Shown one piece after another: positions 2,603-31,633 of a DNA stretch of 64,000 nt. Made by a program: the position numbers and the translations under genes. Below the pieces are notes generated by a model that was not told where the DNA came from, did no database searches, and was given only the letters and a program-made list of their open reading frames with translations. Source of the DNA: Gaetbulibacter saemankumensis DSM 17032. GTDB taxonomy: Bacteria > Bacteroidota > Bacteroidia > Flavobacteriales > Flavobacteriaceae. The DNA is taken from the NCBI RefSeq assembly GCF_000425645.1, contig NZ_KE384430.1, positions 558,001 through 622,000 of the forward strand. Reading direction: 5' to 3'. Position 1 is the stretch's first letter. The number at the start of each line of letters is the position of its first letter.

Positions 2603-3577
2603 TTAATGTACCGGACTTTGAGTACATGGACAGTTACTAATACCCTGTAAAAATTCTAAACCTATAGTAATAACATGGGTCCCGGAATTATAACCAGCTA
2701 ACTCGTTAGTCGTAACCTGATAGGCGTAACCAAAATAGAATAAAGACTTTTTAAATCCGACCATAGGGCCAATATTAAGCGGTTTTAAGAACTGATCGTT
2801 TAAAAAACGGTATGATATACCAGCCCAGAAGTAATCTTCGTTTCTATCGTATTTTCTGAACTTAAAATTAACGTCGGTACTGGAACGTTTATCACTACTA
2901 AACATTTGATAATAAACTGATGGTTCAAATTCTAATCCGCTTTTCTTAGGACCGCGAAAGGTGTAACCTGAATAGATTTGATAGTTTAACAATAATCTCG
3001 GTTCCAATTTTCTAATAGTTTCATCAATATTTTTGTTTAAAATATTGTTGGCATTAAAACTCAGCCAAAAACCGTGGTTTCTATATAGGGCTCCAACGTC
3101 GAAGTTGTTGTTAGATGTACGTCGGTCATCCGTTATATAAGGGTCGATTACCGGATGCTCGTAAGTTGTATCAAACTTACTAATATCAATTCTGAAATTA
3201 TTGATGTTATAGGAAATACCAAAAGATAAATATTGTTTTGAATAATAATCTAAAATTAAGTGATGGGCGAAAGAAAATTTTGCACCTGTTTGTAAGGTGT
3301 AACCATTTTTATCATTGTATAATGATATACCAACTCCAGAACGATCGGCAATTCTAAAATCACCATATATAGATTGGTTATCGGGAGCATCTTTAATGCC
3401 AACCCACTGTGTTAATCCATTAGCTCTAATTTTTAAATTATCTCCAATGCCTGCATATGTTGGTGATACAACAAAGTTATTATCGGCTAAATACTGTGTA
3501 AAAACAGGCAAATTTAATTCCTGACCATAACTTATGGTTATGGCCAAGAATAGGATATATGTAAGTAATTTTCGCAT
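2603..3577 (-). CDS. sprF: PorP/SprF family outer-membrane protein (SprF-like)
   Basis: A 324-residue protein with signal peptide (residues 1-18, ending SYGQ) and the PorP/SprF start pattern LPVFTQYLADNNFVVSPTYAGIGDNLKIRANGL-type, here from residue 21. Alternating beta strands fit an outer-membrane barrel. In Flavobacterium johnsoniae SprF is encoded next to SprB and is needed for SprB secretion to the surface; PorP-type proteins act as anchors for type B T9SS cargo. The gene starts 40 bases after the stop of the giant adhesin gene, as in the sprCDBF operon, so I infer SprF function from family plus position. The symbol is by synteny, not by direct sequence comparison. Confidence 0.85.
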   Translation of the reverse strand: MRKLLTYILFLAITISYGQELNLPVFTQYLADNNFVVSPTYAGIGDNLKIRANGLTQWVGIKDAPDNQSIYGDFRIADRSGVGISLYNDKNGYTLQTGAKFSFAHHLILDYYSKQYLSFGISYNINNFRIDISKFDTTYEHPVIDPYITDDRRTSNNNFDVGALYRNHGFWLSFNANNILNKNIDETIRKLEPRLLLNYQIYSGYTFRGPKKSGLEFEPSVYYQMFSSDKRSSTDVNFKFRKYDRNEDYFWAGISYRFLNDQFLKPLNIGPMVGFKKSLFYFGYAYQVTTNELAGYNSGTHVITIGLEFLQGISNCPCTQSPVH

Positions 3578-3617: not shown

Positions 3618-6600
3618 TTACCTGTAAAGAGTGAAATGTCCAACAAATTCTCTATCATCCTTCGGATCATTTAGTTTAACAACATACCAATAATCTCCAG
3701 TAGGTAATTCATGTCCGTGATAGGTTCCGTCCCATGTTTCGCCAACACGTAATTGTGCCACTCTACGACCATATCTATCAAAAATATTAAATACCAAATC
3801 TTTATATTGAGAGGTACATCCAGGTCCCCATTCATCTAAATTACCATCACCATTAGGTGTAAAGTAATTAGGAATACAAACATCGATATACTCAAAATAA
3901 TCACTTGCTGAAGCAGTACATCCGTTACTATCGGTAACCGTTACCGTGTATGTTCCTGATGAATAAATAATGAAGGTATTGTCACTTCCATAAGAATCAC
4001 CATTTACGGTAAAAGTATAATCGCCTGTACCACCTGTAGCATTTGCTACAATTTCATTTAAACCACCGGTACCAATGGTTAATTGAAGCGGTTCGTAATA
4101 TGCGATATCAAAGTTTGGTGTACGTTTAATACATCCATTTGTATGTCTTACATCAATATAATGATCTAATCCTGCTGGCACATTAATATATATATTACTG
4201 GTTTGGTATGGGCCACCATCAAGTGCGTATTCTAATTGTGATGGATCGGTAATACTTTCATCAACTTCAACCGTCACCATATTCGTGGACATGTTATTTG
4301 TACAGCCAAATTCAACAATAGCTACTGGGTCGATTAACACCGATTCAGGGAAGGTGATATTCCATTCAGATTCACAACCTTCACTATCAATTACAAATAC
4401 CGTATGATCACCCCCTTCTAATCCGGTAAAATCGAATTGTGTTTGTGTAGCTGTTCCGGTAGTGTATGTCCCATTAATATCATCAAGGGCTACACTATAT
4501 GGCGGTGTTCCACCAGAGATGGTTACACTAAAAGATCCATTCATATCCCCATAACAAACTTCTGGAATAATTGAATTTGGTACGATACTTAGCAATACAG
4601 GGTTAGGTTCGTAAATTGTGAAATCATATAACTCATAACAACCTAAAATATCTTGAACGATAATTTGATAATCTCCAGGAGCTAAATTATCGAAAATAGG
4701 TTCATCAAAGAATTGATCCATTTGAGGTGAGATAGCATATTTTATAATGCCTGTTCCTCCGGTTGCTGAGACTTCTACCATACCATCATTTGCACCGTTA
4801 CAAGTAACATCGGTTGTTAGTAATTGCGCCGATAATGGGGTAGATGGTTCTGTAATTTCTACAATTTCTGAAGTGGTATCACAATCACCACTTTCAACAA
4901 ATACCTGATAGCGTCCTGCAACAAGTTCAGTAAAGACACCAGGGCTATCTTGAACCGCTGTTGGTATGTCATTACCAGCTTCGTCTTGTAGGGTATATAC
5001 ATAGTTGCCTAATCCTCCTTGTGCCGTAGCAACAATAACTCCAGTATTATCACCGGCACAGTTAATAGTTGCGTTGGTTTTATCCAGTTCTAAAGTTAGA
5101 GCAGGTAATGGGTCTATAGTTATTTCGTTTGAAACAGCATCACTACATAGATTGGCATCACGTACATAATATTGGTATGTTCCTGGAGTTACCGGGAAGG
5201 TAATATCAGTAACAAATGAACCAATTACGGTTGAGAAAGAAGCATCAGTACTATACTCATAAGGTCCTGTTCCTCCTGTGGCACTCAATGTTAAATTAGC
5301 ATCTAATAAACATGTTTGAGAACTTGTTTTAACCAGACTGGCTTCAATTTTTGTAGGTTCAGCTATAACAATATCGGCTGAAGTCGCGGTACAATTATAA
5401 CCATCGGTTACCGTAACATTATAGGTTCCAGTACCCAAATTAGTAAATACAGGAGAAAGCTGTGGTCCTGATGAACTTACCATTGGAGCTGTCATATTCA
5501 AGGTATAAGTATAGTTGCTACCTTGACCTCCGCTAATTAAATCGACTGTAATAGTTGCATTTTGATCTCCAAAACAGCTTAGCATATTAGTATCTGCACT
5601 AGCTGTAATTGTAATAGGAGTAGGATCTACTAAAATGACATTAGTTGGTGCTATACATCCTTGACTATCTCTTACACTTACGATATAATTACCTGCTGAT
5701 AATCCTGTAAAATTAGGGTTTGTAGTAAATGGATTAATCACAGAGCCATTATGTTCTAGTTGATATTCATAATCACTTGGCCATCCACCCGTAGCTGTAG
5801 CTGAAATTGTTCCGTTGTTACCATCACAGGTAATTTCGGTATGGGTTTCAGAAATAGCCAGAGCACTGTTTGGAGCGGTAATAGTAAAGTTTTTCGTAAC
5901 CGCACAATAAGGTCTGTTTGTTAGGGTTGCGGTAATGGTATACGTACCAGCTGCAAATCCGTTAAGTGTAATAGGTCCTGCATTGATTGAATTTCCTGAA
6001 GTTATTGGGTTGCCAGAGGTATCTGTAACCATATAACTAAAAGCACCGGCATCATCGGTTGGTGTAGTGACTCTATCTATAAAAGTAATATTAACACTAC
6101 CATCATTATCATTAAAACAAGTAACATCAACTACCGAATCAATGTTTAAATCGAAGGTATTCGGATCGTTAACATAGTGAACCGTTTGAAGACTACATTG
6201 AGTGTCTATATTTTCAACAGTAATAATATAATTTCCGATAGGTAATCCAGTAAAAATACCGGTTGTATTGGTTTGTGTCGGTAAGTTACCATTGGCATCT
6301 TCTAAAGTAAATTCTAAATTAGGAGTACCTCCAGTGCTTGTTACGTTTACTGTGATGTCTTCATCGTTAGTACACGTAATGGCATTATCAATAGTAATAT
6401 CAAGGTCTTCTATTGCTATAAAAGGTTGGATGGTAGCTGTAGTACTTCCTAAACAGCCATTATTATCATAGACATTAATATCAAAATTACCTCCTAATAC
6501 CTCTGTTTCGGTATACACATTATTTGGTCCCGATTGAACAATGTTACCACCTTTGATAAATTCGTAAGTAGTATAATTACCAGAACCACCCGTAACACCG

Positions 6601-9600
6601 GTAACGGTAATACTTGCAAAATTAGCTGCATTTGTGCCTGCAGAACAAGCAAACTCAATAACGCTTGGGGCAGGTACGTTAATTACAGCAGGTTCGTTGA
6701 TTGTAACATCTTCAGTGGCAATACAATTTCTACCTGATGTTACTTGCACCGTATAAGTTCCGGCCGCTAAACCTGTAAATACATTAGAGTTTTGAGGAGC
6801 AACGACTATAGGTGCTGTGATTTCATATGTGTATATAGGGTTATCATTACTTGTAGGTAGATCTACTATGATACTTCCATCACTACCACCGTTACAACTT
6901 ACATCAATTGGATTTGGTGTGAAAGTTACTGGTGTTGCACTATCTAGAGTTACCGATGCATTTCTGGTACAACCTGTTGTTAAGTCTTCGATTGTAACTG
7001 AGTAGCTTCCCGAAGGCAGGTTAGAAATAACATTTCCTGTAACTGTGCCAACATTCGGGCTTATAGAAAAGCTATAATTACCAGAACCTCCAGAACCTGT
7101 TATAGTAATAACACCATCATTATCATCACAACTTGGTAAGGTCGTAATGGTAGGTACTAAATCTAAAGCCGGGTAAACAGTTATTGGTGTAGCATCTTGG
7201 GTTGTACATCCATTAGCATCTTTAACAGTTACATAATAATCGCCTGGCGTTGCTACTGTAAATGTTGGACTTGCTTGGAATCCATTACCAATGGAATAGG
7301 TAAAAGGTCCTACACCAGTTGGGTTGGATACAGTAAATGTAAATGGATCACCTGTAAGATTACATTGGTTGTCTGATAATGTAGGAACGGTTATTGTTGG
7401 TAATGGATCGGTCGTTATAGCGACGTCTATCATATCTGAACAACCATTACTATCTATAACCCATACATCCCAATTTGTAGATATCGTTGGGTCTAGAACA
7501 GCTGTGTTATTATTAGTGTAATCTGATGTAATTGGAGTTGCACCATCGATTACAAAAGCATATTGATATGGAGGAGTTCCGCCCATTGCCTCCACAGTTA
7601 CCTGAGCCCCAAAATTACAGTTTGCATTGATGTTTTCAATTTCAGATAGGGTTAAAGCATTTGGTTCGTTTACGGTAATGGTAGCAGTATCTGTACAACC
7701 TGTCGTGTCATCTGTAACAACAATTGTTTGATCACCAACAGGTAAACCTGTTAGGTTTATAGTAGAATTTGTCTCGCCAGTTCCTGCTGAAACTCCGTTT
7801 ATTGTATAGCTATAAGTGCCAGAGAAATTAGCTACCGTAAAGTCTACTGTGCCATCTGAACTACCATTACAACTCACATCGTTTACTAATAATCCAGATA
7901 CAGTAATATTGGTTACGGGATTGATTGTATAAGATTCGGTATAATAACAACCATTCGCATCCGTCACCGTGAACACATAAGTGTCTGGACTTAGACCATT
8001 AAATACGTTCGAAGCTTGAGGTCCTACAGCTATTGGTGAAATGATTTCATACATTAATGGACCAACACCATCTGTAGCAGTAAGTGTTACATCACTTGTA
8101 GTAGCTAAACATGTTACAGGAGTTGAAACAAAATCTAAATTTGAAGGCACACTTAATGCGGGTATATCCACATCAATAGGCGTAGCAATAATACACCCGT
8201 TAGCATCTTTTATATAAGCGGTAATGGTTCCAGCTGCATATGTTGTATAAGTTTCTGTTGAAGTATAATTAACTCCACCATTAAAACTATAAGTATATGG
8301 CGGCGTTCCTCCACTACCTGTAATAGTTACAATAGCAGGTTGAGTGGCATTTCCAACACCACAAGTAAGTCCTTGTGTTAATGTACCAGTTCCATCTACT
8401 GGAGTTGGTTCGTTTATGGTTTCGTCAACAGGTAAAGATTCACAGTCTTTGCTGTCTCTAACCAAGATGGTATAAGTTCCTTGTGATAAACCGCTGAATA
8501 CATTTGAGGCTTGCCAAGTAGAACCGCCATTGCTACTATATTCATAAGGGGCGATGCCATTGGAAGCTGTAATAACTATACTTCCGTCTGAACCGCCATT
8601 ACAAGTTACATCTGTAATCGCTGTGGTAAAGGTTGGCACTGTGTTAGGGGTAACCGTAATAGTATTGGATTCGGCTTGACAACTTTGAGAATCTGTTACT
8701 CTAAACTGGTAAGTACCATCTAAATTGGTTGTATAGTTTGCAGAGCCTATTGCAGAGTAGGCCCCGCCATTTAATCTAACTTCATAAGTATAAGGCGCAA
8801 CACCACCCGAAGTGGATAAGCTTATAGAGGCATCTACTAAACAGGTTAAATCTTGTGTTAAATCGGCATCTAATAAAAGAGGCGGTTCAACAGTATAAGT
8901 ATCTGATGCAATACAGCCATTAGCATCTTTAATGCTTACTGTATAACTTCCTGCTGCAGTAATGGTGAAGTCTGGACTTAATTGATAAGCGCCGCCTATA
9001 CTATAGGTTAATGGAGCAATTCCGGTACCAGAAAGTGTAATATTGAAATCAGTGCCGTCGAAACATTGTGCGGCGACCGGATTAATTGTTGGATCTAGAT
9101 CTGCAATAATGGTTGCCGTATCGAATTTTATACAACCATAGGCATCGCGAACATAAATATCATATGTGCCAGCTGCAAGGTTAAAGGTATTTGAACTTAC
9201 CCAGTTTACTGGATTAGTTGCTGCAGTAGTTGGTACGGCTTGATACTCGTATGGTGCCGTACCATTACTAGCGGTAGCTGTAATAATACCAAGTTCGTTA
9301 CAGTTTTCATTTTTTGTAGCATTAGCTGTGATATCTAACTCTATTGCAGACTCCGTAATGTTAAAATCATCTGAAACGATACTACATCCGGCATTAGTAG
9401 CGCCAGCTTCTTCGGTTATCACGACTACATAATTTCCAAAATCTAGATTGCCTAGGTTGGTTACTGTAAGAGTTCCGCTTGCTGGTACAGTTCCAGAGCC
9501 TGAAATACCCATTGGAGTTAAGGTTAGGCTATCAAATACTTCATAAGTAACATCTGTAGCTGTTCCATATGTACTATTAATATCAAAACTAACATTACCG

Positions 9601-12600
9601 TCTGCACTTCCAACACATGTAATATTACTCGGCACAAGAGAACTAACTGTTAATGTTGAATTTGTTGGTATGGCAACATCGGCAGTTTCATAATAATAAC
9701 ATTTACTAGGGCCATCATCATAGACTACAAATGTATAGGTGGCTCCAGGCAATAAACCTGTAAAAACGGTCTGTTTACTATTAGGTGCATCTTCAGGTTG
9801 CCATGCTCCGGTAGGATAAGTCATTCCTGACCCCGTGTAAATAGCAAAATAAAATGGGCCATTTCCGGTTATACTTGAAGCAGATCCGATAGCAACCGTG
9901 GCTTCTCCTCCGGTAATACAATCAACAGTTAAATCAATATTAATATCTAAATCATCTGGCGGAGACGTTACAGTAATGTCTTGTTCTAAATAGGTACAAC
10001 CATTGGCATCTGTAATAATAATTTGATATATACCAAAGTCTACAACCTCAAATACCTGTGTTGATCCATTTTGGTTTGTAATTAGTTGATCGTATCCATT
10101 AACACCCGTTACATGATAAGTATAATTAGGGGTTCCTCCGGTTACGGAGTTTATAATAATTCTACCCAATGAAACACCACCTGACTGACATGTAATAGGG
10201 TCAATATCAAAATCTAAAACAATTGGATTAGGTTCAGCAATAGTTATATTGTTAGTATCAGTACATCCTCGAGCATCGGTTACAGTTATGGTATAGTCTC
10301 CAGCGGCCAAACCTGATGTTTGTGTTCCGTAATCGTTACCGGTACTGTCATTATAAACATTGATTACAAATGGAGGTAAACCTGAATTCACATCAACAGT
10401 TACATCAATTGAGGCATTTGATTCACCGTTACAAGAAATATCTTGAGTTTGAGTTACATTTAGGATAACTGGGTCTACGGTATCTGTTATGGTAATGATT
10501 TCGGTTTCTTCTGTACAACCATTTGCATCAGTAATAAGGAACTGATAAGTACCTGCAATAGATGTGTTATAGGTAAAACTGTTTCCTGTGAATAATGTAG
10601 GCGCATTGTATGCACCACCATTAAATTTAACACTATAACCATAATCAGGATTTCCGCCAGACACATTTAATTCGATTGCGGCTTCCGAAGGCGCCGAACA
10701 GGTTAAATCTTTAGTCATTGTAGCTGTTACGGAAATAGGAGGGAAGACATCAGTCGTGGTGCTACTTGATGCAGTACAACCATTGCCATCACGTACTGTA
10801 ACCGTATAGTTACCCGGAGTATTAACTGTAAATGTTGAGCTAGATTGATAGGATGCTCCTCCGTTAATACTATAAGAAAGTGGAGGAATACCCGTTGCGG
10901 TAACCGAAAAAGTGAATCCTGAATTAACATCACACTGATTATCTACTGTAGGAGCAGAAACTGTTGGTAATGGATCCTCTGTAATGGTTACAGTAGTTAT
11001 AGTCGTACAATCGTTAGCATCTTTTACATATACATCCCAGGTTAAATTGGCTCCTGAATTTGTATCTACCGTTTGAATAGTACTGTTTGAATATGAGGTA
11101 GGTTCTGGATCTCCTGAAATTACAGCAGCATAAGTATAACTTGGCGTACCTCCTGAAGCTATAATCGTGATGTCCGAATTATAATTGTTACAATGTACAT
11201 TAGTTGCTGTTGCAGTAGCACTAACTGCATCAATTGGCTGATTAATAGTTACGCTCGCATTCGCGGTACATCCTGTATCGGTATCGGTCACTATAACCGT
11301 ATAAGTTCCTGCCGTCAAATTCGTTAGAGGTATTGGGTTTACACCTGGCTGCGAAGCTCCCCCATCAACGGTATAAGTGAAATTAGTTGCATTAAATACT
11401 TCAAATTGTGCAGCACCATCATTTCCATTAAAACAGAACACATCACTTAGTTTTAATGCAGTTATGGCAATTGGAGTTACAGGATCAATTACAAATGATT
11501 CTGTATAATAACATCCATTGGTATCGGTCACTCTAAATACATAAGTATCCGGTGCTAATCCCGAAAATACATCAGAGGTTTGGGGTCCTACAACGATAGG
11601 AGAAAGTATTTCGTAAGTTAATGTACCTGCTCCATTAGTCGCTGATACAGTTACGGAAGATGTTGTATTATCACAGGTTACTGGTGTAGCTGAAAAATCT
11701 AAATCTGTTGGTGGGTTTAACGCTGAAATGGTTAATGAACTACTATCTGTACACCCGTTGGCATCCTGAACGGAATAGGTTATCGTCTGATCTAAACCAT
11801 TATCATTAACTTCTAAAGTGTTTGAAGCGCTGTAGCCTGAACCGTTAAAACTATATAAATACGGTGCTGTTCCGGTAGTTGGTACAGCAATCGTTACTGT
11901 TGATGATTGCTTAGTATTATCGGAAGCACAACTGAATGCAGTGGCAGTAGCCGAAACACTTAAAACAGTTGGTTCATTAATAGTAGCAGTGCCATCAAAA
12001 ATACATTCGTTTGCATCTTGTATCTGATAATTATAAGTTCCCGCTGTTAATCCAGTATATAAGGAAGTTGTACTAAAAGGGCTGCCATTAAAACTAAATG
12101 TATATGGACCTACACCTCCAGATGGAACAATTTGAACCGATCCATTCGCATCACCGTTACAGCTGGCATCAATTATGTTGGTTGTAGCTGTTGGGTAGTC
12201 AATTGGATTGATGCTAATAACATTCGATAGAGCTTCACAAGCATTCGCATCAATAACCTTAAACTGATAGGTACCATCAGTGCTAGCATTATAAGTAAAT
12301 GGCGTACTAGCTGTTCCTAAATTTGTAAAGGCTCCCCCATTTATAGATACTTCATAAGTATAAGGCGGATAGCCATCAGTAATGGTACCCGTAATTATAG
12401 CATCAGGAGATACTGTACAATCTAATTCTTTAGTAAGAACTGTACTTATAGTTACTTGAGCTTCGATAGTTTCGGTAGGCAAATCGAACGTACATCCGTA
12501 TGCATCTCTAATAGTGATCGTATAAGTACCTGGGGTTAAATTAGTAAAAATAGGATTGGTTTGATAAGCACTTGAATTTGTACCATCAGAAATGCTAAAC

Positions 12601-15600
12601 TCATAAGGAGGTTGACCGCCTGAAGCCGAAACTTCTAAGGTCGTTCCATCTATAGTATCGTAGCAATAATCGGCATTTATAATAAACCCGGTAGGCGCTG
12701 TAGGGCTTACCAAGGTTATATTAGTGGTGTCTGTACAGCCATTATTATCAGTGACTCTCACTATATAATTTCCTGCAGGAACATTAGCAAGAATGCCATT
12801 ACTTGGGAATGTATTTATAACGTTAGAAGCGTTATCTAACAACTCAAAAGTATAGGCAGGCGTACCACCCGAGGCTGTTGCTGTAATGGTAGAGCCGTCA
12901 AGACAGGTCACAGGTGTTGTAGTTACATTAATAGCTACAGGATCGGGTGCAATGATATCTTGGTTAAAGCTGAAACTACATGTGTTAGGCGTGTTATCAT
13001 AACGTATTTGAACGGTATAACTGCCCGCTGCTAAACCGGTTATAGTCTGTGGTGATGACATTTGGGTAGTCCAGTTAACGCCATCTAAAGAATATTGAAA
13101 ACCGTTGGTAGTATCGAAGTTTTGAGCAGCAATGGTTATAGTACCGTCATTTCCAGAATTACATGAAAGATTTGTAGCATTTATTATTTCGGCTGAAAAT
13201 GCATTACCAGGTTCTATAATAAATGGAAAATCAACCTGTGAAATACAAGTTTCAGGTAACTGATAGACGCTAATGTCATCAATGGCAACATCATTACCAC
13301 TGGTTTGTTGTACATTAGACCTAACAATAAATCTTAAACTGGTGTTAGCACCAGGATCTAGAGTTAATGGGGTTTTGGGATAATGCTCCCAAGACTCTGT
13401 TTTAGGTATTTCTCCAGTATTAAAGGATGATATTTCATTACCTCCAGCATCGACTAAAGCTACTAATAGATCTGGATTGTATTGTGTATTACCTGCTTTA
13501 AGTAAATTTATAGCAAAGAATTCAACATTTATAGGTTGATTCGGGATTATATCATCAATTTGTTTTTCATATAATATGGCCGTTTTTGGAATGGTAGATC
13601 CAATATTAACAACTAAATATCGTCCATTTGACCCCGAGCCGCTACCAGATGTTGTATGATTTACTGGATTTATCCATGCACTATAGGGGTTTACTATATT
13701 TGATGTTACAGAATAATCACCGTCCTGAATCCTAGTACTACCTTGACACTCTGTTCCTATTTCTTGTCTTTCAAAGCAATAATATGTTGCATTTATTCCT
13801 GGAGAATTAGTATCACTGCCCGATCCAAAATCTTCTTTTAATAGATTGCTATAAGTTGGAACCGACTGTAATTGGTAGGTAACACTTATAGTATGGGATC
13901 CATCTGGAACATCTAGGAATGTAGTTGGATCTGTGGTATTAGGGTTTTCTACACCATCCAATAAGTAGGTGTAAGTATATGTATTCGATGTTGAGTTGGT
14001 AACTGTTACAATGGCATTTGCAGATCCATCACAATTATAATCCGGATTTGATATAGATATGGTTGGCGCTATTGGTTCCGGGTCAACTATAATGTTTGGC
14101 ATGGCATAAATACAGCCATTTGCATCGCGTACATATAGGGTGTAGGTGCCTGATGGCATCCAGGCCTCGTTCGCTAATGTCCAAGTGGCTTGATTATCAA
14201 AACTAAATTCATAAGGAGCTGTTCCTCCTTGTGGATTTGTAATTCTTATCATGGCTTCACCATTAGGACCACAGCCTGCAAGTTGCGAAACTCCGGCAGA
14301 GGCTGTAAGGGTATTATTAGGTTGAGTAATAATAATGTCCTCAGTCGTACTAAAACAATCGGTACCATTTAAAGAATATTTTATTATGGTTTGATAGGTA
14401 CCTGCTGTTAAGTTTAAAAATGTTGGGTTAGTAGAATAAGTGACACCGTTATCTATACTATACTCAATAGTATATCCATTAGCATTGGTAACATTGAAAT
14501 TGATACTTCCTGTAGCTTCACCAGAACATAATATATCGTCGTGAGTAACAGTAAATACTGGGTCAGGTATGCCATCAACTGTTATGGATGTAGTAGCACT
14601 ACAGTTGTTAGTATCTACTACCGTAATATCAAAAGTGCCTGCAGAACTAACTGGAATTAAAGGACTTGTTTGAAAATCTGTTGTACTGTTTACATAGTAG
14701 TAATATGGTGGTGTTCCGCCTTCAGGGTATACAGTAATTTCTCCATCGGTACAGGTTAATGGTGTTGTAAGCGCCGATGTAGCAGTTAATAATGGTGGAT
14801 TTATTATCTCTATGTCTTCGGTGTGTAAACAGCCATCGTCAGTAGAAACATCAATAGTATAAATACCTGGATTTAAATTAGAAAAAGTATAATCACTGGC
14901 GTCGATAGGACCAACACTATTTACTAGAGTTCCACCTTGTGAAATACTATAATTATATTGTGGTAAGGCATCATTTACAGCTATTTTTACGGATCCTTTA
15001 TCACCGTTACAGTAAGGCTGTGTAACAATGGTTGTAACGCTAAAATCGCGATTTCTTACATACACGGGAGGTGTTTCAAATATACACGGATTGGTATCTA
15101 CTCCCACTTGTCTGATATAAACAGTGTAATATCCAGGGGTATTTACAGTAAATACATTTGATGGTTGGTAGGGACCTGAAGGGTCTAAACTATATTCGTA
15201 ACCAGAAGGAACGCCACCTACGGTGACTTCACCCGGCGTTGTACATATAATATCTTTGGCAGTAACTGTTGGGTTTAATAAATTCTGATAGACATTGAAA
15301 TAGAAAATACTAAAACAGCCTCCGGGGTAATTAATTACAATTCTAAATTGGCCAGCATCATTGGCATTATAATCGGGACCTGTTCCTACCTGATCCCAAG
15401 AACATTCGTCATTCTCATTGGCACAATCATCTACTGTTAAAGCCGGACAGCTTGTTTCATCTAATTTTTCCCAAACTATAGATACGGCATCACTAATACC
15501 CGTATTTATAGAGCGTATATCATTAGCGCCACATAAGAAAATATAAGGAAGGACTTTACCATCATTTGGACAAATAGGCAATAAATCAGCATATGGGATA

Positions 15601-17423
15601 ATAGGGTTTGTTATGGTATTACCATAAGGAATGACCGTTATTGCTTCCATAATTGAAATACATGTGGAAGACGTGGTATTCTGTACATAATAAGTACCTA
15701 ATTCTGTGGCGGTATAACTCTGTCCTGTACCAACAACGGGTGTTCCTGTAGGACTTGTAGACCAAGAGTAGCTATCGTAACCGTCTGCAGCAGTTAGTAC
15801 CACACTACTACCACAAAGCACTTCATTGCGTTCGAAACTACAGTTTGTAATGTCTACTAAAAAGTTGGTTGAACCAGGGGTTCCTAAGCATTCTACAGAA
15901 GCAAAACTACCTTCATCTTGAATGATTTCAGGATTAATAACACCTCTGTAAGTAGCATAGGCTTGGTTTTTTATTTCATTGGAACAAGCCTGACTTAAAT
16001 CATAACAATTAGGAACTACCTGTACTGCAATCCGGATGGTGAATTGGGGGTCATCAACTTCTACAGACGAGTCGGGGATGCTAAATATAAGGGTTCGTGT
16101 AACAGGATCGTATGACTGTACTGTTGCTCCACCGGCATTAGATAAGTCAATGTCCGTATTAGGGTCGAAAATAACATTCTCTGGTAGTATATCTTTTATT
16201 GTAAACTCAGTAACATCATCGTTTCCTATACTTTGGTATGTGATTTCATAGAATAAACGTTGACCTAGATTGACATCACCACCCTCAATATCAGTACCCG
16301 AAGTATCCACAACATTTTTAAGAAGTTCAATATCGGGCGTAATAATATCTACTGCAAAGCAGCTAAAAAAGGAATAAATAGGATCGGCTTGACCTCTTGC
16401 TACTTGCAAAACAAAACTAGCCGCGTTGTCACTATTTTTAACATACTCTGGTTCTGCGCCTATAATTTCTAAATAGCCGGTATCATACCCAAGGGTATTC
16501 TCACTTAAAGGTTCTCTTGGAGTAACGAGACCATTCGAATTTTCAATAACAGATCCAAAAAATTTATTGGCTGTACGTAATGGAGTAGTAACTTCTTTTC
16601 CGTTAATTTCTAGTTTAGTGGCACGTTTTGTTCTATCTCCATCTAATGCAGCATAGGCGAATTGTAAATCGATAGGTCCTGCAGGAGGCGTGGAAAATCC
16701 AGTAACATTAACTTCTTCGTAATGACCATCAAAAATATGGCTAAATCCATCAAAGGTGTTGAATGATTTTTTATGTTCGTTAGGGTCTTCATAAATAATA
16801 AATAATGTCCATCCGGCACTTAATCCAGTAGAATTGTTAAATCCTAAACTTGAGGTGACGTCGGCAACAGTATAAGTACCCTCAATATCTGTAACACCAT
16901 CAAAAAAACTGGTTACATCGGCATAACAGGCATAAGGTGTATTACCCGGTTCGTTAGGTTCTGCGGGAATTGGGCTTACTATGGCATCGTATATAAGCTC
17001 TCCTGTAATATCGGTATAGGAGCTGCTATTAGGTGTTTTAAATTTTACTTTATTTATATCAGTTCTGCTCCCACTTTGTAGCATGGCACCCCAATATAGT
17101 GCAGCATAAGCTACCCGATAACAGGTGGTTGCACTACCATCTTCTTGAGCAGGAATTAATATATCGGCACTACTTGAACTAAATGTAGAGGCATCACCAT
17201 CAATATCAATATATTGCATATTGATATCCTGATTATCTTTGGTTAGGTCATTAAAGGGGTTGTTATCCTGTCCTAAGATATTATTACCTATTACAAGCAT
17301 GCTTCCTCTAAGTTCTATGTTTTTCCTAAGGGTAAAAGGCTCGTAGGTCTGAGCGATACCACTTGAAAAGAGTAGTAAAAACAAAACAACTAGAGTTGAT
17401 TTTAATAAAGTAGTTTTTTTCAT
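3618..17423 (-). CDS. sprB: Giant SprB-like gliding-motility adhesin, T9SS type B cargo
   Basis: A 4601-residue secreted protein. Residues 1-25 are a signal peptide ending SGIAQ. Residues about 30-360 form a conserved N-terminal region with YRVAYAALYWGAM. About 365-470 is a DUF11-like module (GDVNLGQRLFYEITYQ). About 528-590 looks Ig-like. From about 790 to 4490 run dozens of SprB-type repeats, each with a Cys near the start (SCNGGSDG) and ending like GTYTVTVTDSNGC. A different module interrupts the array at about 1190-1395. Residues 4514-4601 are the gliding-motility-associated C-terminal domain (PNYFTPNGDGN, IFDRYGRRV) used as type B sorting signal. In F. johnsoniae SprB is a 6497-residue mobile surface adhesin driving gliding. 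Position between SprD- and SprF-like genes supports the symbol. Confidence 0.92.
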   Translation of the reverse strand: MKKTTLLKSTLVVLFLLLFSSGIAQTYEPFTLRKNIELRGSMLVIGNNILGQDNNPFNDLTKDNQDINMQYIDIDGDASTFSSSSADILIPAQEDGSATTCYRVAYAALYWGAMLQSGSRTDINKVKFKTPNSSSYTDITGELIYDAIVSPIPAEPNEPGNTPYACYADVTSFFDGVTDIEGTYTVADVTSSLGFNNSTGLSAGWTLFIIYEDPNEHKKSFNTFDGFSHIFDGHYEEVNVTGFSTPPAGPIDLQFAYAALDGDRTKRATKLEINGKEVTTPLRTANKFFGSVIENSNGLVTPREPLSENTLGYDTGYLEIIGAEPEYVKNSDNAASFVLQVARGQADPIYSFFSCFAVDIITPDIELLKNVVDTSGTDIEGGDVNLGQRLFYEITYQSIGNDDVTEFTIKDILPENVIFDPNTDIDLSNAGGATVQSYDPVTRTLIFSIPDSSVEVDDPQFTIRIAVQVVPNCYDLSQACSNEIKNQAYATYRGVINPEIIQDEGSFASVECLGTPGSTNFLVDITNCSFERNEVLCGSSVVLTAADGYDSYSWSTSPTGTPVVGTGQSYTATELGTYYVQNTTSSTCISIMEAITVIPYGNTITNPIIPYADLLPICPNDGKVLPYIFLCGANDIRSINTGISDAVSIVWEKLDETSCPALTVDDCANENDECSWDQVGTGPDYNANDAGQFRIVINYPGGCFSIFYFNVYQNLLNPTVTAKDIICTTPGEVTVGGVPSGYEYSLDPSGPYQPSNVFTVNTPGYYTVYIRQVGVDTNPCIFETPPVYVRNRDFSVTTIVTQPYCNGDKGSVKIAVNDALPQYNYSISQGGTLVNSVGPIDASDYTFSNLNPGIYTIDVSTDDGCLHTEDIEIINPPLLTATSALTTPLTCTDGEITVYPEGGTPPYYYYVNSTTDFQTSPLIPVSSAGTFDITVVDTNNCSATTSITVDGIPDPVFTVTHDDILCSGEATGSINFNVTNANGYTIEYSIDNGVTYSTNPTFLNLTAGTYQTIIKYSLNGTDCFSTTEDIIITQPNNTLTASAGVSQLAGCGPNGEAMIRITNPQGGTAPYEFSFDNQATWTLANEAWMPSGTYTLYVRDANGCIYAMPNIIVDPEPIAPTISISNPDYNCDGSANAIVTVTNSTSNTYTYTYLLDGVENPNTTDPTTFLDVPDGSHTISVTYQLQSVPTYSNLLKEDFGSGSDTNSPGINATYYCFERQEIGTECQGSTRIQDGDYSVTSNIVNPYSAWINPVNHTTSGSGSGSNGRYLVVNIGSTIPKTAILYEKQIDDIIPNQPINVEFFAINLLKAGNTQYNPDLLVALVDAGGNEISSFNTGEIPKTESWEHYPKTPLTLDPGANTSLRFIVRSNVQQTSGNDVAIDDISVYQLPETCISQVDFPFIIEPGNAFSAEIINATNLSCNSGNDGTITIAAQNFDTTNGFQYSLDGVNWTTQMSSPQTITGLAAGSYTVQIRYDNTPNTCSFSFNQDIIAPDPVAINVTTTPVTCLDGSTITATASGGTPAYTFELLDNASNVINTFPSNGILANVPAGNYIVRVTDNNGCTDTTNITLVSPTAPTGFIINADYCYDTIDGTTLEVSASGGQPPYEFSISDGTNSSAYQTNPIFTNLTPGTYTITIRDAYGCTFDLPTETIEAQVTISTVLTKELDCTVSPDAIITGTITDGYPPYTYEVSINGGAFTNLGTASTPFTYNASTDGTYQFKVIDANACEALSNVISINPIDYPTATTNIIDASCNGDANGSVQIVPSGGVGPYTFSFNGSPFSTTSLYTGLTAGTYNYQIQDANECIFDGTATINEPTVLSVSATATAFSCASDNTKQSSTVTIAVPTTGTAPYLYSFNGSGYSASNTLEVNDNGLDQTITYSVQDANGCTDSSSLTISALNPPTDLDFSATPVTCDNTTSSVTVSATNGAGTLTYEILSPIVVGPQTSDVFSGLAPDTYVFRVTDTNGCYYTESFVIDPVTPIAITALKLSDVFCFNGNDGAAQFEVFNATNFTYTVDGGASQPGVNPIPLTNLTAGTYTVIVTDTDTGCTANASVTINQPIDAVSATATATNVHCNNYNSDITIIASGGTPSYTYAAVISGDPEPTSYSNSTIQTVDTNSGANLTWDVYVKDANDCTTITTVTITEDPLPTVSAPTVDNQCDVNSGFTFSVTATGIPPLSYSINGGASYQSSSTFTVNTPGNYTVTVRDGNGCTASSSTTTDVFPPISVTATMTKDLTCSAPSEAAIELNVSGGNPDYGYSVKFNGGAYNAPTLFTGNSFTYNTSIAGTYQFLITDANGCTEETEIITITDTVDPVILNVTQTQDISCNGESNASIDVTVDVNSGLPPFVINVYNDSTGNDYGTQTSGLAAGDYTITVTDARGCTDTNNITIAEPNPIVLDFDIDPITCQSGGVSLGRIIINSVTGGTPNYTYHVTGVNGYDQLITNQNGSTQVFEVVDFGIYQIIITDANGCTYLEQDITVTSPPDDLDINIDLTVDCITGGEATVAIGSASSITGNGPFYFAIYTGSGMTYPTGAWQPEDAPNSKQTVFTGLLPGATYTFVVYDDGPSKCYYYETADVAIPTNSTLTVSSLVPSNITCVGSADGNVSFDINSTYGTATDVTYEVFDSLTLTPMGISGSGTVPASGTLTVTNLGNLDFGNYVVVITEEAGATNAGCSIVSDDFNITESAIELDITANATKNENCNELGIITATASNGTAPYEYQAVPTTAATNPVNWVSSNTFNLAAGTYDIYVRDAYGCIKFDTATIIADLDPTINPVAAQCFDGTDFNITLSGTGIAPLTYSIGGAYQLSPDFTITAAGSYTVSIKDANGCIASDTYTVEPPLLLDADLTQDLTCLVDASISLSTSGGVAPYTYEVRLNGGAYSAIGSANYTTNLDGTYQFRVTDSQSCQAESNTITVTPNTVPTFTTAITDVTCNGGSDGSIVITASNGIAPYEYSSNGGSTWQASNVFSGLSQGTYTILVRDSKDCESLPVDETINEPTPVDGTGTLTQGLTCGVGNATQPAIVTITGSGGTPPYTYSFNGGVNYTSTETYTTYAAGTITAYIKDANGCIIATPIDVDIPALSVPSNLDFVSTPVTCLATTSDVTLTATDGVGPLMYEIISPIAVGPQASNVFNGLSPDTYVFTVTDANGCYYTESYTINPVTNITVSGLLVNDVSCNGSSDGTVDFTVANFSGTYSYTINGVSAGTGETNSTINLTGLPVGDQTIVVTDDTTGCTDTATITVNEPNALTLSEIENINANCNFGAQVTVEAMGGTPPYQYAFVIDGATPITSDYTNNNTAVLDPTISTNWDVWVIDSNGCSDMIDVAITTDPLPTITVPTLSDNQCNLTGDPFTFTVSNPTGVGPFTYSIGNGFQASPTFTVATPGDYYVTVKDANGCTTQDATPITVYPALDLVPTITTLPSCDDNDGVITITGSGGSGNYSFSISPNVGTVTGNVISNLPSGSYSVTIEDLTTGCTRNASVTLDSATPVTFTPNPIDVSCNGGSDGSIIVDLPTSNDNPIYTYEITAPIVVAPQNSNVFTGLAAGTYTVQVTSGRNCIATEDVTINEPAVINVPAPSVIEFACSAGTNAANFASITVTGVTGGSGNYTTYEFIKGGNIVQSGPNNVYTETEVLGGNFDINVYDNNGCLGSTTATIQPFIAIEDLDITIDNAITCTNDEDITVNVTSTGGTPNLEFTLEDANGNLPTQTNTTGIFTGLPIGNYIITVENIDTQCSLQTVHYVNDPNTFDLNIDSVVDVTCFNDNDGSVNITFIDRVTTPTDDAGAFSYMVTDTSGNPITSGNSINAGPITLNGFAAGTYTITATLTNRPYCAVTKNFTITAPNSALAISETHTEITCDGNNGTISATATGGWPSDYEYQLEHNGSVINPFTTNPNFTGLSAGNYIVSVRDSQGCIAPTNVILVDPTPITITASADTNMLSCFGDQNATITVDLISGGQGSNYTYTLNMTAPMVSSSGPQLSPVFTNLGTGTYNVTVTDGYNCTATSADIVIAEPTKIEASLVKTSSQTCLLDANLTLSATGGTGPYEYSTDASFSTVIGSFVTDITFPVTPGTYQYYVRDANLCSDAVSNEITIDPLPALTLELDKTNATINCAGDNTGVIVATAQGGLGNYVYTLQDEAGNDIPTAVQDSPGVFTELVAGRYQVFVESGDCDTTSEIVEITEPSTPLSAQLLTTDVTCNGANDGMVEVSATGGTGIIKYAISPQMDQFFDEPIFDNLAPGDYQIIVQDILGCYELYDFTIYEPNPVLLSIVPNSIIPEVCYGDMNGSFSVTISGGTPPYSVALDDINGTYTTGTATQTQFDFTGLEGGDHTVFVIDSEGCESEWNITFPESVLIDPVAIVEFGCTNNMSTNMVTVEVDESITDPSQLEYALDGGPYQTSNIYINVPAGLDHYIDVRHTNGCIKRTPNFDIAYYEPLQLTIGTGGLNEIVANATGGTGDYTFTVNGDSYGSDNTFIIYSSGTYTVTVTDSNGCTASASDYFEYIDVCIPNYFTPNGDGNLDEWGPGCTSQYKDLVFNIFDRYGRRVAQLRVGETWDGTYHGHELPTGDYWYVVKLNDPKDDREFVGHFTLYR
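7190..8890 (-). repeat. Higher-order repeat block B inside the adhesin gene
   Basis: A run of consecutive SprB-type modules that reappears in the same order at 10755-12460. Matching landmarks are spaced 3564-3570 bases apart: 7204/10774, 7399/10966, 7939/11503 and 8780/12350. An 18-base identity, cttcataagtataaggcg, occurs at 8780 and 12350. All offsets are multiples of three, so the frame is kept. Confidence 0.75.
10755..12460 (-). repeat. Higher-order repeat block A inside the adhesin gene
   Basis: The partner of the block at 7190-8890. Protein-level landmarks recur in the same order: a QCDVNSG/QCNLTGD module, DPLPT, a Tyr-Tyr-Thr-Glu-Ser module with TPVTC, and a DLTC or ELDC module with GGAY/GGAF. 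This indicates block duplication of about 570 codons rather than single-repeat expansion. Confidence 0.75.
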
Positions 17424-17484: not shown

Positions 17485-20115
17485 TTAATTTTCAATTTTA
17501 ACCATAGACATGTTAACGTTATATGGTTTGCTTCCTTTGGTGTTTAATGCGTTATTGGCACTATTTAAATTGTCGAACTTCTCATAATAGATGTAATATT
17601 TATTAGTGTTTACATCGAAAAAGAAGTTTATGTCGTCTTGACCTGCGGCTACACATTTGGTTATAAATTCATCACGTTTTGTAACATTACTGTGAACAGC
17701 AATTACTAGGTAATATCCACTTGAGGTGTTTTTTACATCTTTTACAATTTTTATGTTGTTACCTAAGCTTTCACCATGATCAAAATCGGATGCGGTAAAA
17801 GTTTTAGAGCTTGGTGGTGTATTTTGTTTAATACGAACTAAGGTGGCCATATCTTTATCGTACCTAGCCTGTTCATCATCGTATGCGGCACGTTTAATAC
17901 GTCTTTTTCGCTCAACTTCTGTAGCTATATTGATACTTTCTAAAGAAGAATCTAAGCGCTCTTTAGCTTGTTTAGTTTCATTCTGTTGTGATTTTAATTG
18001 TTCGATAGTATTTGCATAGAACATATTAACGGTATCTGTTTTACTACGAACTTTTCTTATTCTGGTACTATATAAGTTTTCTAATTCTTGAATTTTTTCT
18101 TCTTGATTTTTTAAGGTATTATCAATGTCGGCTTTTAATGAAGCAATTGCTTGGTTTTCTTCCGATACGCTTTTAAAAGGTTTGGGTTCTGAATAGATAC
18201 CTTGTTCACTTAAATCGTTTTCACGTTTTAAATCGAACAAATCTTTTTCCTTACGATCTACACGATCTTGAAGTCTTGCCATTAATTCCTGTTGTACTGC
18301 ATTTGATTCCATTGCTAATTGGGTAATGGTATTCATGGCGTCTGTAGTCTCATCGGTGGCTTCAGGTAGAGCAATTGTCTTGTTAGCTTCTTCCTCGGCC
18401 TTAGCTTTGGCAATAGCAGCTAGTCGAGCTTGTTCTGCAGCTTTAGCTTTTTGCTCTGCTTCACGTTTTAGACGGACTTCTTCCTCGGCCTTAGCTTTGG
18501 CAATAGCAGCTAGTCGAGCTTGTTCTGCAGCTTTAGCTTTTTGCTCTGCTTCACGTTTTAGACGGACTTCTTCCTCGGCCTTAGCTTTGGCAATAGCAGC
18601 TAGTCGAGCTTGTTCTGCAGCTTTAGCTTTTTGCTCTGCTTCACGTTTTAGACGGGCTTCTTCCTCGGCCTTAGCTTTGGCAATAGCAGATAGTCGAGCT
18701 TGTTCTGCTGCTTTGGCTTTTTGCTCTGCTTCACGTTTTAGACGGGTTTCTTCCTCGGCCTTAGCTTTGGCAATAGCAGCTAGTCGAGCTTGTTCTGCTG
18801 CTTTGGCTTTTTGCTCTGCTTCACGTTTTAAACGGGCTTCTTCCTCGGCCTTAGCTTTAGCAATAGCTGCTGAGTCTGATTGACTAGTGGTTATGTTATT
18901 TTCTGTAGAAATTGTTGTTTCCTTTACTTTGTTTTCATCGTTTACGGGTTGAAGGATATCTTCTTTTTTAGCGGCGATGCGTGCTTCAGCTTCAGCTTTT
19001 AATTTAGCTCGTTCTTCAGCTTTGGCAGCCGCTTTGGCTTTTAACAGAGCCTGAGCTTCTGCTCTGGCTTTAGCTCGTTCTTCAATAGCCTTTTTACGAT
19101 CGATTGGTGCCGAATAGCTTGGTTTTCTTTTTGCAATCGTGCGTTTATGTTTAGTTTCAGAAATAATAAAGGCTTCTTCTTGATCATCACCACTATAGTT
19201 ATATCTGTCTCTGTTTTTTATTTTATAGGCCACTGTAAATTCATGCGAATTTCCAAAGTTTGAATACTTACCTATGGCTTGTTCGTAATTGTATTCAACA
19301 GCAATCTGACTTGTAATATTCAGACCTAATCCAGCGGAGGCACCGTATAGCGTATTATAGCCAGCTTGTGCCCAGATACCTTTAGGTACCTGTAGCATGA
19401 CTAATCCAGAAATAATAGTATTGTCTTTTTGAAATTCTGAGCGTCCTAAGAATGTAAATTTTGCTTCATCAAAAAATCCGCGACTATCCATATACCCTGT
19501 GTACATGATGTGTGCTTGAATGCCTTGTTCTGGATTATCTTCGAGCATTTTTGAACTCGTAAAATTATAGGCGGCAACATTATTAATGGCAAGTCCAAAG
19601 TCTAAAAATGTTGTTCCATAATTAATACCAGGATTAATGGTAATAATAGTGTTTGAAGGAAGGTCACCGAGTACAGGATCTGGGAAGTTTGAATGTACTT
19701 TACCATTATTTAACCCACTTTGGTAAATGCCCAGATTCATACCGAATGTTAAGTTGCTATCGCGATTTAATTGAGCGTTGTAGGCAAAGTTTAACAGTCC
19801 GCCAAAAGTGGTTAAAACACCATAATTTTGCTGAAATAGGCTAATCCCCATACCCATATTTTCTTGAAAACGTCCGGCGTAGCCAAAGATATATGTTTGT
19901 GGTGCATCATCAAATTGAACCCATTGTCTTTTGTTTGAAAAACTTATATATCTATTTTGTTCTCTAACAAAACTAAAGGATGGATTGTAAATATGTTTGT
20001 TGAATTTTAAAGAGTTTCTTACAGGTAAAGCAAGTCCAACCACCGCATTATCCTGGGCGAATAGTAGTTGCGTTAAGCACGCAAAAATTGCAATATGTAA
20101 GAAGTTTAATTTCAT
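17485..20115 (-). CDS. sprD: PorP-like barrel fused to long coiled coil, SprD-like
   Basis: An 876-residue protein. Residues 1-20 are a signal peptide. Residues about 25-310 resemble PorP/SprF barrels (LPVRNSLKFNKHIYNPSFSFVREQ, with an FGYAGRF strand). Residues about 340-600 are Ala/Lys/Glu-rich helix including five near-identical 30-residue units. Residues about 610-780 are further coiled coil. The last 80 residues (YYLVIAVHSNVTKRDEFITK to the end) resemble a SPOR-type fold. The start at 20115 is 1 base after the SprC-like stop, so translation is probably coupled; the adhesin gene follows after 61 bases. I infer a periplasm-spanning partner of the adhesin export or anchoring machinery. The symbol rests on operon order. 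Confidence 0.75.
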   Translation of the reverse strand: MKLNFLHIAIFACLTQLLFAQDNAVVGLALPVRNSLKFNKHIYNPSFSFVREQNRYISFSNKRQWVQFDDAPQTYIFGYAGRFQENMGMGISLFQQNYGVLTTFGGLLNFAYNAQLNRDSNLTFGMNLGIYQSGLNNGKVHSNFPDPVLGDLPSNTIITINPGINYGTTFLDFGLAINNVAAYNFTSSKMLEDNPEQGIQAHIMYTGYMDSRGFFDEAKFTFLGRSEFQKDNTIISGLVMLQVPKGIWAQAGYNTLYGASAGLGLNITSQIAVEYNYEQAIGKYSNFGNSHEFTVAYKIKNRDRYNYSGDDQEEAFIISETKHKRTIAKRKPSYSAPIDRKKAIEERAKARAEAQALLKAKAAAKAEERAKLKAEAEARIAAKKEDILQPVNDENKVKETTISTENNITTSQSDSAAIAKAKAEEEARLKREAEQKAKAAEQARLAAIAKAKAEEETRLKREAEQKAKAAEQARLSAIAKAKAEEEARLKREAEQKAKAAEQARLAAIAKAKAEEEVRLKREAEQKAKAAEQARLAAIAKAKAEEEVRLKREAEQKAKAAEQARLAAIAKAKAEEEANKTIALPEATDETTDAMNTITQLAMESNAVQQELMARLQDRVDRKEKDLFDLKRENDLSEQGIYSEPKPFKSVSEENQAIASLKADIDNTLKNQEEKIQELENLYSTRIRKVRSKTDTVNMFYANTIEQLKSQQNETKQAKERLDSSLESINIATEVERKRRIKRAAYDDEQARYDKDMATLVRIKQNTPPSSKTFTASDFDHGESLGNNIKIVKDVKNTSSGYYLVIAVHSNVTKRDEFITKCVAAGQDDINFFFDVNTNKYYIYYEKFDNLNSANNALNTKGSKPYNVNMSMVKIEN
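18391..18883 (-). repeat. 90-bp in-frame tandem repeat array
   Basis: The marker ttcctcggcc recurs at 18391, 18481, 18571, 18661, 18751 and 18841, exactly 90 bases apart, giving five full units and a partial sixth. Each unit encodes 30 residues of the type AKAEEEVRLKREAEQKAKAA. Units differ at only a few bases, and the two central units are almost identical. This signals recent expansion or active homogenisation. Confidence 0.95.
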
Positions 20116-20116
20116 T

Positions 20117-21553
20117 TTATTTGACGACTGTTATCGAGCCCTTCCGCTTTTTTTTATTTTGAGTTGTTATGATGTAATAATACACCGGATTTATATCATT
20201 AAGTTCTATATCATTTGTGGGCCAATCGTTTAAATAATTATCGGTTTGTAAAACAATCTTTCCTTGCGATGTCATAATTATAACTTGCGCATTGGTGCCG
20301 TTTACATATTCTTGAGGAATGACCCAGGTGTCATTAATACCATCACCATTGGGGCTAACAATGTTTGGTATTTCAGGCACATCTGGAAATGGTTCTTTTA
20401 CCGAAAAAGTAAATTCGTTTGATGCTATACAACCTGTGGTTTGGGTTACAACGGCTCTGTAATTACCAATGGAGTTGGCCTCATAGATATTTGAAGTAGC
20501 CGATGCGATTAATGTATTATTTAAATACCATTCAAAATTTGGGTTATTAGCGTCGGTAGTAATAGTTGCTGTAATTGTTTCTCCTTCCTCTATAAAGTTA
20601 TATTCTGGAATATCTATGCTACTTGTAAAACCTGTAGTTTCTAAGTTGATAGTACCAGTTGTTACACAGACCCCTAGATCAATTGTTACAGAATAAGAGC
20701 CAGCTTGGTCTGTAGAATAGGTTTGATTTGTTGCCCCTGATATAGGAGTTCCGTCTTTGTACCATTGGTAACTATTACCATTAATAGTACTTAGTGTGGT
20801 GGCGCCTTCACTTGAACAATATGGGTTACCTAAACTAGAATTGATGGTAGTGGTACTAGAGGACGTTGCTTCACTAACCGTAACACGGTTAGAGTATGAA
20901 TTTGAAGTACAAGAGCCATAGTTTGTTTCAACAAAATAGGTGCCAGGTTGTGATACTTCTAAACTATTTGAAGTTTGAATATATTCTGAAGTTGTGGCAC
21001 TTGTTTCTTTATACCAGTTAAAAGTTAAAGAAGTGTATTGTAAAGGGGAATCATTTTCTCCATTACCAGGATTATCAATGGTTAGAATATAACTTTCTCC
21101 TGCACAGTAAACCGCCGTTTCTATGAGGTTGTTTATGGTGAAAGGCGTATCCTGTATTTTGTAATAAGCTGCAAAAGCATCTGATCTTGGACTTATAGCT
21201 GGAAAAATAGAACTTTTAATTTTTAATCGATAGGCCTCTCCAGCGGTATTAGTTGGAAGTGAAAATTCTACGGTTACAGGTGTTTCTGTAAATTCTCCGG
21301 GAGCAGTAGTTTTAAGTATAACAGGATTGGTAAAGTCGCCCGTAGCATCAGATAATTCTACAATAAACTGGTTTGAAGTTAAGTTGTCTTCTGTTGTAAA
21401 ATTGAATGTAACGAAGTAAGTGTTGAAATTTTCACCGGCACATGCCTGACTAAACCCTAGGTTTGGTTTACTTATAACCATTTGAGAATGTCCGACTTTG
21501 GTAAAACATACAACAAGTAAAATCACGATATTAATAACAGTAAAATTTCTCAT
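20117..21553 (-). CDS. sprC: T9SS type B cargo with Ig-like domains, SprC-like
   Basis: A 478-residue secreted protein with signal peptide (residues 1-23, ending GHSQ). Several Ig-like/PKD-like segments carry the pattern YQWYKDGTPISGATNQTY and FEWYLNNTLIASATS. The last 85 residues form the gliding-motility-associated C-terminal domain (PNIVSPNGDGINDTW, VIIMTSQGKIVLQT), the type B sorting signal of the T9SS. It is the gene before the SprD-like gene, as sprC is in F. johnsoniae. The upstream gap to the beta-helix gene is 169 bases with no clear promoter, so it may be read from the promoter at 23112-23142. The exact role of SprC proteins is not well known; the symbol is by synteny. Confidence 0.75.
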   Translation of the reverse strand: MRNFTVINIVILLVVCFTKVGHSQMVISKPNLGFSQACAGENFNTYFVTFNFTTEDNLTSNQFIVELSDATGDFTNPVILKTTAPGEFTETPVTVEFSLPTNTAGEAYRLKIKSSIFPAISPRSDAFAAYYKIQDTPFTINNLIETAVYCAGESYILTIDNPGNGENDSPLQYTSLTFNWYKETSATTSEYIQTSNSLEVSQPGTYFVETNYGSCTSNSYSNRVTVSEATSSSTTTINSSLGNPYCSSEGATTLSTINGNSYQWYKDGTPISGATNQTYSTDQAGSYSVTIDLGVCVTTGTINLETTGFTSSIDIPEYNFIEEGETITATITTDANNPNFEWYLNNTLIASATSNIYEANSIGNYRAVVTQTTGCIASNEFTFSVKEPFPDVPEIPNIVSPNGDGINDTWVIPQEYVNGTNAQVIIMTSQGKIVLQTDNYLNDWPTNDIELNDINPVYYYIITTQNKKKRKGSITVVK

Positions 21554-31523: not shown

Positions 31524-31633
31524 CAATTAACACATAATTATAAAGACTGTACTGAATAAAATTGTAGATTAGTAGGTTAATTAAGGTTTAAAATTTATTA
31601 AGCTTTAAAACGGATTAAAAATAGCTTTCAACT

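Follow-up and report, generated by a model that had tools for sequence, protein, structure and literature searches.

The window analysed here is a stretch of 64,000 nucleotides from the forward strand of Gaetbulibacter saemankumensis DSM 17032 (contig NZ_KE384430.1, positions 558,001 to 622,000), and it carries on the minus strand a sprD-like gene with a 90-bp tandem repeat in its coding sequence. This repeat exemplifies a helical arm, evolving fast across the whole family, that is located between an outer-membrane beta-barrel and a C-terminal region. The encoded protein of 876 amino acids (aa) was assigned to the PorP/SprF family by matches to PF11751 (155.7 bits, cut-off 22.3) and TIGR03519 (165.3 bits, cut-off 90.55). 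The features of the gene are as follows.

17485-20115, minus strand: sprD-like gene, 876 aa, with PorP/SprF barrel, helical arm and C-terminal region (open reading frame (ORF), PF11751, TIGR03519)
19216-20043, minus strand: outer-membrane beta-barrel, residues 25-300 (AlphaFold2 (AF2) model, with the barrel at about 54-300, and structure search)
18253-19224, minus strand: arm or linker, residues 298-621 (324 aa), the length-variable part across orthologues (orthologue comparison)
18955-19098, minus strand: first arm helix, residues 340-387, Ala/Lys/Glu-rich, outside the array (AF2 and sequence)
18379-18882, minus strand: continuous predicted helix, residues 412-579, about 25 nm, predicted local distance difference test (pLDDT) about 60 (AF2)
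18386-18876, minus strand: 90-bp tandem array (Tandem Repeats Finder (TRF): period 90, 5.4 copies, 97% matches, 0% indels)
18778-18867, minus strand: unit 1 (in-frame reading)
18688-18777, minus strand: unit 2 (in-frame reading)
18598-18687, minus strand: unit 3 (in-frame reading)
18508-18597, minus strand: unit 4, identical to unit 5
18418-18507, minus strand: unit 5 (in-frame reading); units 4 and 5 lie nearest the 3' end
18386-18417, minus strand: partial sixth unit, 32 bases (TRF and in-frame reading)
17821-18351, minus strand: conserved helical bundle, residues 589-765 (AF2 and conservation)
17491-17751, minus strand: SPOR-like alpha/beta domain, residues 789-875 (AF2, intermediate sequences, profile comparison)

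Read in frame on the minus strand, the array consists of five whole 30-codon units (18418-18867) followed by the 32-base partial unit. The whole units differ pairwise at 0-5 of 90 bases, and because units 4 and 5 are identical, further identical copies could have been merged by the assembly, so that five units represent a lower bound. The array region is composed of 34% Ala, 20% Glu, 16% Lys and 9% Arg. The first-pass annotation had placed the array at 18391-18883, only a few bases from the TRF boundaries, and had described five near-identical 30-codon units plus a partial one, as borne out by the in-frame reading; its further claim that the repeat encodes a Lys/Ala/Glu helix agrees with the composition and with the AF2 helix.

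The 491-base array sequence matched a single place in the genome, and no other array exceeded both 90% match and a score of 100 in the 464,000 of 3,089,149 genome bases that were scanned (besides the window, contig C1 was sampled in 19 stretches of 20 kb at even spacing, and C5 over its initial 20 kb). One higher-scoring array with a 78-79% match was found in the same scan at locus L109 (genome G000, contig C5, 946-2346); its period is 237/474 bp and it lies within a 1039-aa open frame, the end of which looks by eye like a type IX secretion system (T9SS) sorting domain. Two weak short tandem repeats of 17 and 21 bp, with about two copies each, were located elsewhere in the window (31580-31618 and 33686-33732). 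Opposite the array, a 185-aa frame is open on the plus strand (18326-18883), because the repeat period is a whole number of codons and thereby holds a stop-free frame open; it is probably not a gene and was set aside.

The full-protein AF2 model, built from 49 sequences (the window protein and 48 of 63 available orthologues), had a mean pLDDT of 75.7 and a predicted template modelling score (pTM) of 0.40, and its helix 412-579 spans nearly all of the array. The C-terminal part modelled alone with 64 sequences was locally more confident (pLDDT 91.6, pTM 0.57). Structure search with the full-length model returned barrels, the best matches being the T9SS complex chains 8gl6_F and 6h3i_F (Z 23.6/23.0, root mean square deviation 3.0/3.1, 260/258 residues aligned), in which chain F is PorV; FadL-type channels followed closely at Z 22, within about 1-2 Z. 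Sequence family and model together strongly support an outer-membrane carrier-type barrel. Sequence searches against solved structures returned nothing that was judged relevant: profile matches were helical or low-complexity at E 0.34 or worse, and matches of the full protein, at E 0.00023 or worse, all fell in the arm (residues 328-558). The extension after the barrel would be periplasmic, since SprD is homologous to SprF, the C-terminal tail of which is periplasmic and has a Cys-X-Cys motif bound to GldK (PMC12635249; papers are cited here from extracts of their text).

Arm length was compared among 98 full-length SprDs, the window's own included. This sample, drawn from two genome collections that differ, is not random, its members having been picked for their match to the window protein and among the top Flavobacterium hits; segment boundaries were set by alignment to the window protein, with unaligned ends extrapolated. 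One set of 85 loci yielded 68 full-length proteins, 13 loci without a full-length frame (among them L034 and L052, with two halves in different frames) and four other proteins (L002-L004, L056); removal of L072, L082 and L083, which lie on the same contigs as L005, L051 and L008, left 65. From L161-L200, seven of 40 were left out as paralogues, short PorP-SPOR proteins or frame-broken genes (L173-L179), which left 33. L042, with a run of Ns in its array, was kept among the 98 but excluded from pair and tree comparisons. L086-L089, L110-L160 and L201-L204 stand outside the 98, and L204, a weakly matching frame of 2158 aa, gave no SprD. The window's own species is represented by one genome. In L178, L179 and L052, sprD is split into two frames with no N run, by frameshift or sequencing error.

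The arm comprised 196-1239 residues in the 98 proteins, against 296-301 for the barrel and 245-261 for the C-terminal region; three further SprDs (L201-L203), picked as the shortest frames listed, had arms of 162, 166 and 182 residues. An array scoring at least 200 was found in 81 of the 98, and 11 had no TRF row at all. The best periods of the 81 arrays ranged over 10-155 codons, 16 and 17 being the commonest, and all were multiples of three in bases, as were 551 of all 553 TRF rows. Unit and period differed between most lineages. Thus almost only the arm changes in length, and it does so in whole codons through lineage-specific tandem arrays, a statement that the comparison shows or strongly supports. 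When barrels were at least 90% identical, arm length still differed in 42 of 43 genome pairs (median 43 residues; the pairs are not independent, and 38 of them lie within Flavobacterium). The loci L036, L038 and L071, for instance, have barrels with 99% protein and 95-98% DNA identity and arms of 343, 367 and 375 aa; some close pairs, such as L038 and L071 with 96-98% DNA identity at both ends, may be strains of one species. One Flavobacterium clade (13 proteins) had arms of 921-1239 residues, and the 62 proteins from outside Flavobacterium had arms of 196-493 (median 289.5), among which the median length difference stayed at 46-58 aa from 90% down to below 65% barrel identity, with no growth. 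As arrays are common, the range of lengths is wide and near-identical barrels carry different arms, the sprD arm locus is hypervariable family-wide. The claim of the first-pass annotation that copy number changed recently fits the near identity of the units and this rapid turnover; the comparison it had set beforehand, of the unit with that of distant relatives, found the window's exact unit in none of the 97 other full-length SprDs and did not refute the claim.

Within the arm interior of the 98 SprDs, Ala makes up 37.5%, accompanied by Lys, Glu, Leu, Asp, Gln and Arg, and Pro and Gly only 0.3% and 0.2%. Opposite charges at i,i+4 occurred at 1.94 (acid-base) and 3.44 (base-acid) times the shuffled expectation, and those eight apart were depleted; the window array itself has 21 and 22 such i,i+4 pairs, versus about 8.5 in shuffles. 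Opposite charges paired four residues apart are the pattern of stable single helices, and composition and pairing fit an arm that is probably a single alpha-helix. A regular heptad coiled coil was set aside on a crude test, in which hydrophobic periodicity scattered (13 of 98 arms at 3.38, 13 at 4.0, one at 3.5) and unit lengths were 2 or 3 modulo 7 in 57 of 81 arrays.

The C-terminal model ends in the order beta-alpha-beta-beta-alpha-beta, which is the SPOR topology; SPOR domains bind peptidoglycan. A link through intermediate sequences was provided by three proteins of other genomes (L116, L127, L137), in which a PorP barrel, recognised at E 3e-30 to 5e-66 by a hidden Markov model (HMM) built for this analysis, is combined with a region that exceeds the Pfam SPOR cut-off. 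The HMM of the SprD C-terminal region finds that same region at E 8e-8 to 2e-10; both searches were made in a set of 25 ORFs. By topology and by this link to the family (PF05036), we read the SprD end domain as a divergent SPOR domain; unlike the family members, it escapes the SPOR model. The three compact PorP-SPOR proteins have open frames of 502, 522 and 630 aa (the last cut to 588 in the locus used) without a Lys/Ala/Glu array, the linker of L127 being rich in Asn and Gly; the ancestral SprD may have looked like them. Some Flavobacterium genomes (L173, L174, L177) encode a second protein, about 660 aa long, with an end that matches the SprD C-terminal region, and no barrel was detected in these proteins by single-sequence search.

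The neighbouring genes are:

20117-21553, minus strand: sprC-like gene with a type B T9SS sorting domain (CHU_C, TIGR04131)
3618-17423, minus strand: sprB-like giant adhesin, 4601 aa, with a type B T9SS sorting domain (named from size and position)
2603-3577, minus strand: sprF-like gene (weak match to the SprD barrel; Cys-Pro-Cys in the C-terminal tail)

The sprC-like protein reached 51.9 bits with CHU_C (cut-off 27) and 34.6 bits with TIGR04131, just below the cut-off of 35. The order sprC-sprD-sprB-sprF is the operon order of gliding Bacteroidota. In 52 named loci of relatives, surveyed for sprC and sprB-like genes, 51 have sprC upstream of sprD and 41 have a sprB-like gene on its downstream side; ten of the remaining 11 end at a contig end inside sprD, and the other is L056, a weak match which we take as another protein. 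The name SprD, used already in the first-pass annotation, is therefore supported by the barrel family and by the operon position, with neighbours that are kept in relatives. Gene order and family are shared with SprD of Flavobacterium johnsoniae; the sample included Flavobacterium relatives, with no record labelled F. johnsoniae among those examined.

A requirement for SprD in gliding has been stated (PMC11885536), SprCD have been named as gliding-associated (PMC10202324), and in F. johnsoniae SprC travels on the gliding track (PMC12635249). A sprD deletion is available in F. johnsoniae as strain CJ2246 (PMC9870892). With the SprF/PorP carriers of type B T9SS cargo, SprD shares the barrel family and the place beside a type B cargo gene, and the neighbouring genes suggest SprC as its probable cargo. 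It differs from SprF in having an arm and a further domain in place of the GldK-bound tail, and a conserved cysteine for a SprF-like disulfide link, sought in the SprD C-terminal region, was not found. In the extracts of the literature searched, no explanation was found of how SprD works in Bacteroidota gliding, nor any description of a sprD repeat, of arm-length variation, of the SPOR-like end or of a PorP-SPOR protein; supplements and the original operon paper lay outside that search.

The closest precedent is domain II of Escherichia coli TolA, likewise a periplasmic, mainly helical domain with in-frame repeats. According to the extract consulted, tolA copy number varies between strains and changes the phenotype (how well bile salt and other stresses are tolerated), RecA is needed for contractions, and natural alleles have 8-16 units (PMC3477136). 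SprD arms vary far more between species than this, and TolA is a force transducer anchored in the inner membrane, with ends unlike those of SprD. The NCBI TolA model matched over the array at 20.2 bits, and as its cut-off is 59.45, the match is probably compositional. In Flavobacterium psychrophilum, a 'gliding motility-associated protein' that the source text seen does not name has a repeat of 35-88 units among isolates (PMC8400371); repeat number thus differs within one species, in a protein that could be SprD or another one. The typing loci of F. psychrophilum include a short repeat in gldL (PMC4501049).

With a rough probability of 0.55, we propose that the array forms much of a long, probably single-helix periplasmic arm, which serves as a leash from an outer-membrane carrier to the cell wall or to the gliding track. 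Unit number would rise and fall through recombination between units or slippage, by analogy with tolA, while purifying selection would hold the frame, the helix-forming composition and both ends; the constancy of these three speaks for selection on the protein. A long leash would let the barrel and its probable cargo SprC sit or move at a distance from the partner of the SPOR-like domain, which is most likely peptidoglycan and otherwise the track, and arm length would set the slack of the link within a wide tolerance.

Several results weigh against parts of this proposal. The predicted helix over the array reaches no more than about 60 in pLDDT and falls below 50 at residues 499-505. Charge pairs three residues apart show no enrichment (1.10 and 0.59), and the departures of the charge pairs from expectation are inflated, because shuffling also destroys the repeats. 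For the end domain, the Pfam SPOR model gave no row on SprD at E up to 10, and direct profile comparison was weak, with a probability of 23% for the SprD C-terminal profile against 22 other SPOR domains (best of 50 column shuffles as control, 1.9%); structure search with the C-terminal model returned helical bundles (residues 1-156), none of them informing on the SPOR-like part. A fixed anchor in the wall would be difficult to reconcile with the movement of SprC on the track, provided that SprC is carried by SprD. The likeness of the units could also come from gene conversion, without a recent change in copy number. Finally, arm length follows the tree (lambda 1.0), as expected of drift, and an Ornstein-Uhlenbeck model beats Brownian motion by only 0.77 and 0.19 log units, so that constraint is not separated from drift. 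A bounded arm length outside Flavobacterium is for this reason not claimed: the binned differences look bounded, and the model comparison did not favour this over drift.

The last results bear on the foremost alternative, that the arm is a neutral spacer, in which unstable DNA expands and contracts, any helical length above a minimum works and nothing is tuned. We regard this as possible, though on balance unlikely. A more than six-fold length range with nearly fixed ends, units and periods that differ between most lineages, and a Brownian fit about as good as that of the constrained model are all in its favour; yet no measured arm is shorter than 162 aa, the median length difference outside Flavobacterium does not grow with divergence, and repeat number does matter in tolA (PMC3477136).

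Somewhat more doubtful is an arm that ends on the track, with the SPOR-like domain repurposed to hold a moving track protein and SprD acting as a second, non-covalent carrier beside the disulfide-linked SprF. The movement of F. johnsoniae SprC on the track (PMC12635249) is consistent with it, as is an end domain that has diverged enough to escape the SPOR model and is yet conserved among SprDs. Against this, the nearest relatives found for the end domain are SPOR domains, and no binding partner is named in the extracts of the literature searched.

The first-pass annotation had suggested that helix length could tune how far the protein reaches across the periplasm. The predicted array helix of the window, about 25 nm, is indeed near the width of the periplasm (about 20-30 nm). 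At an estimated 0.15 nm per residue, an arm of about 1000 residues would span about 150 nm and one of 1239 residues, if wholly helical, about 186 nm, far in excess of that width, and genomes that are close differ by tens of residues. A straight strut is hence not the general rule; straight reach across the periplasm is not supported as it was stated, and a rigid ruler of this kind is improbable.

That SprD arms are the building rods of the multirails under the outer membrane is very improbable: long rods beside the gliding track would suit multirails, which have been seen by electron microscopy, but every spr mutant examined had them and no gld mutant did, according to the extract consulted (PMC9870892), and SprD rods are thus unlikely to build them. 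Least credible, to the point of being negligible, is an assembly artefact or mis-assembled repeat; contig ends inside sprD in ten of the 52 named loci and N runs within the arms of L034 and L042 would fit it, but the units bear distinct substitutions, and clear arrays are found in one-contig genomes (L057, L059, L069, L071, L074).

The reading of the arm as a leash can be carried further, speculatively and with low confidence: SprD may be a new adjustable envelope tether, with its length rewritten in each lineage by repeat turnover and lineage-specific set lengths tuning the coupling between gliding machine and sacculus. If so, the set lengths would be a median of about 290 residues for the sampled Flavobacteriaceae of genera other than Flavobacterium and about 1000 in one Flavobacterium clade. 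A practical warning is that draft assemblies often break in sprD. With near-fixed ends and more than six-fold variation in the arm, the family offers a natural length series for asking what SprD connects and whether distance matters, and the idea from tolA that the envelope can be tuned through repeat number would be extended to a motility machine in another phylum.

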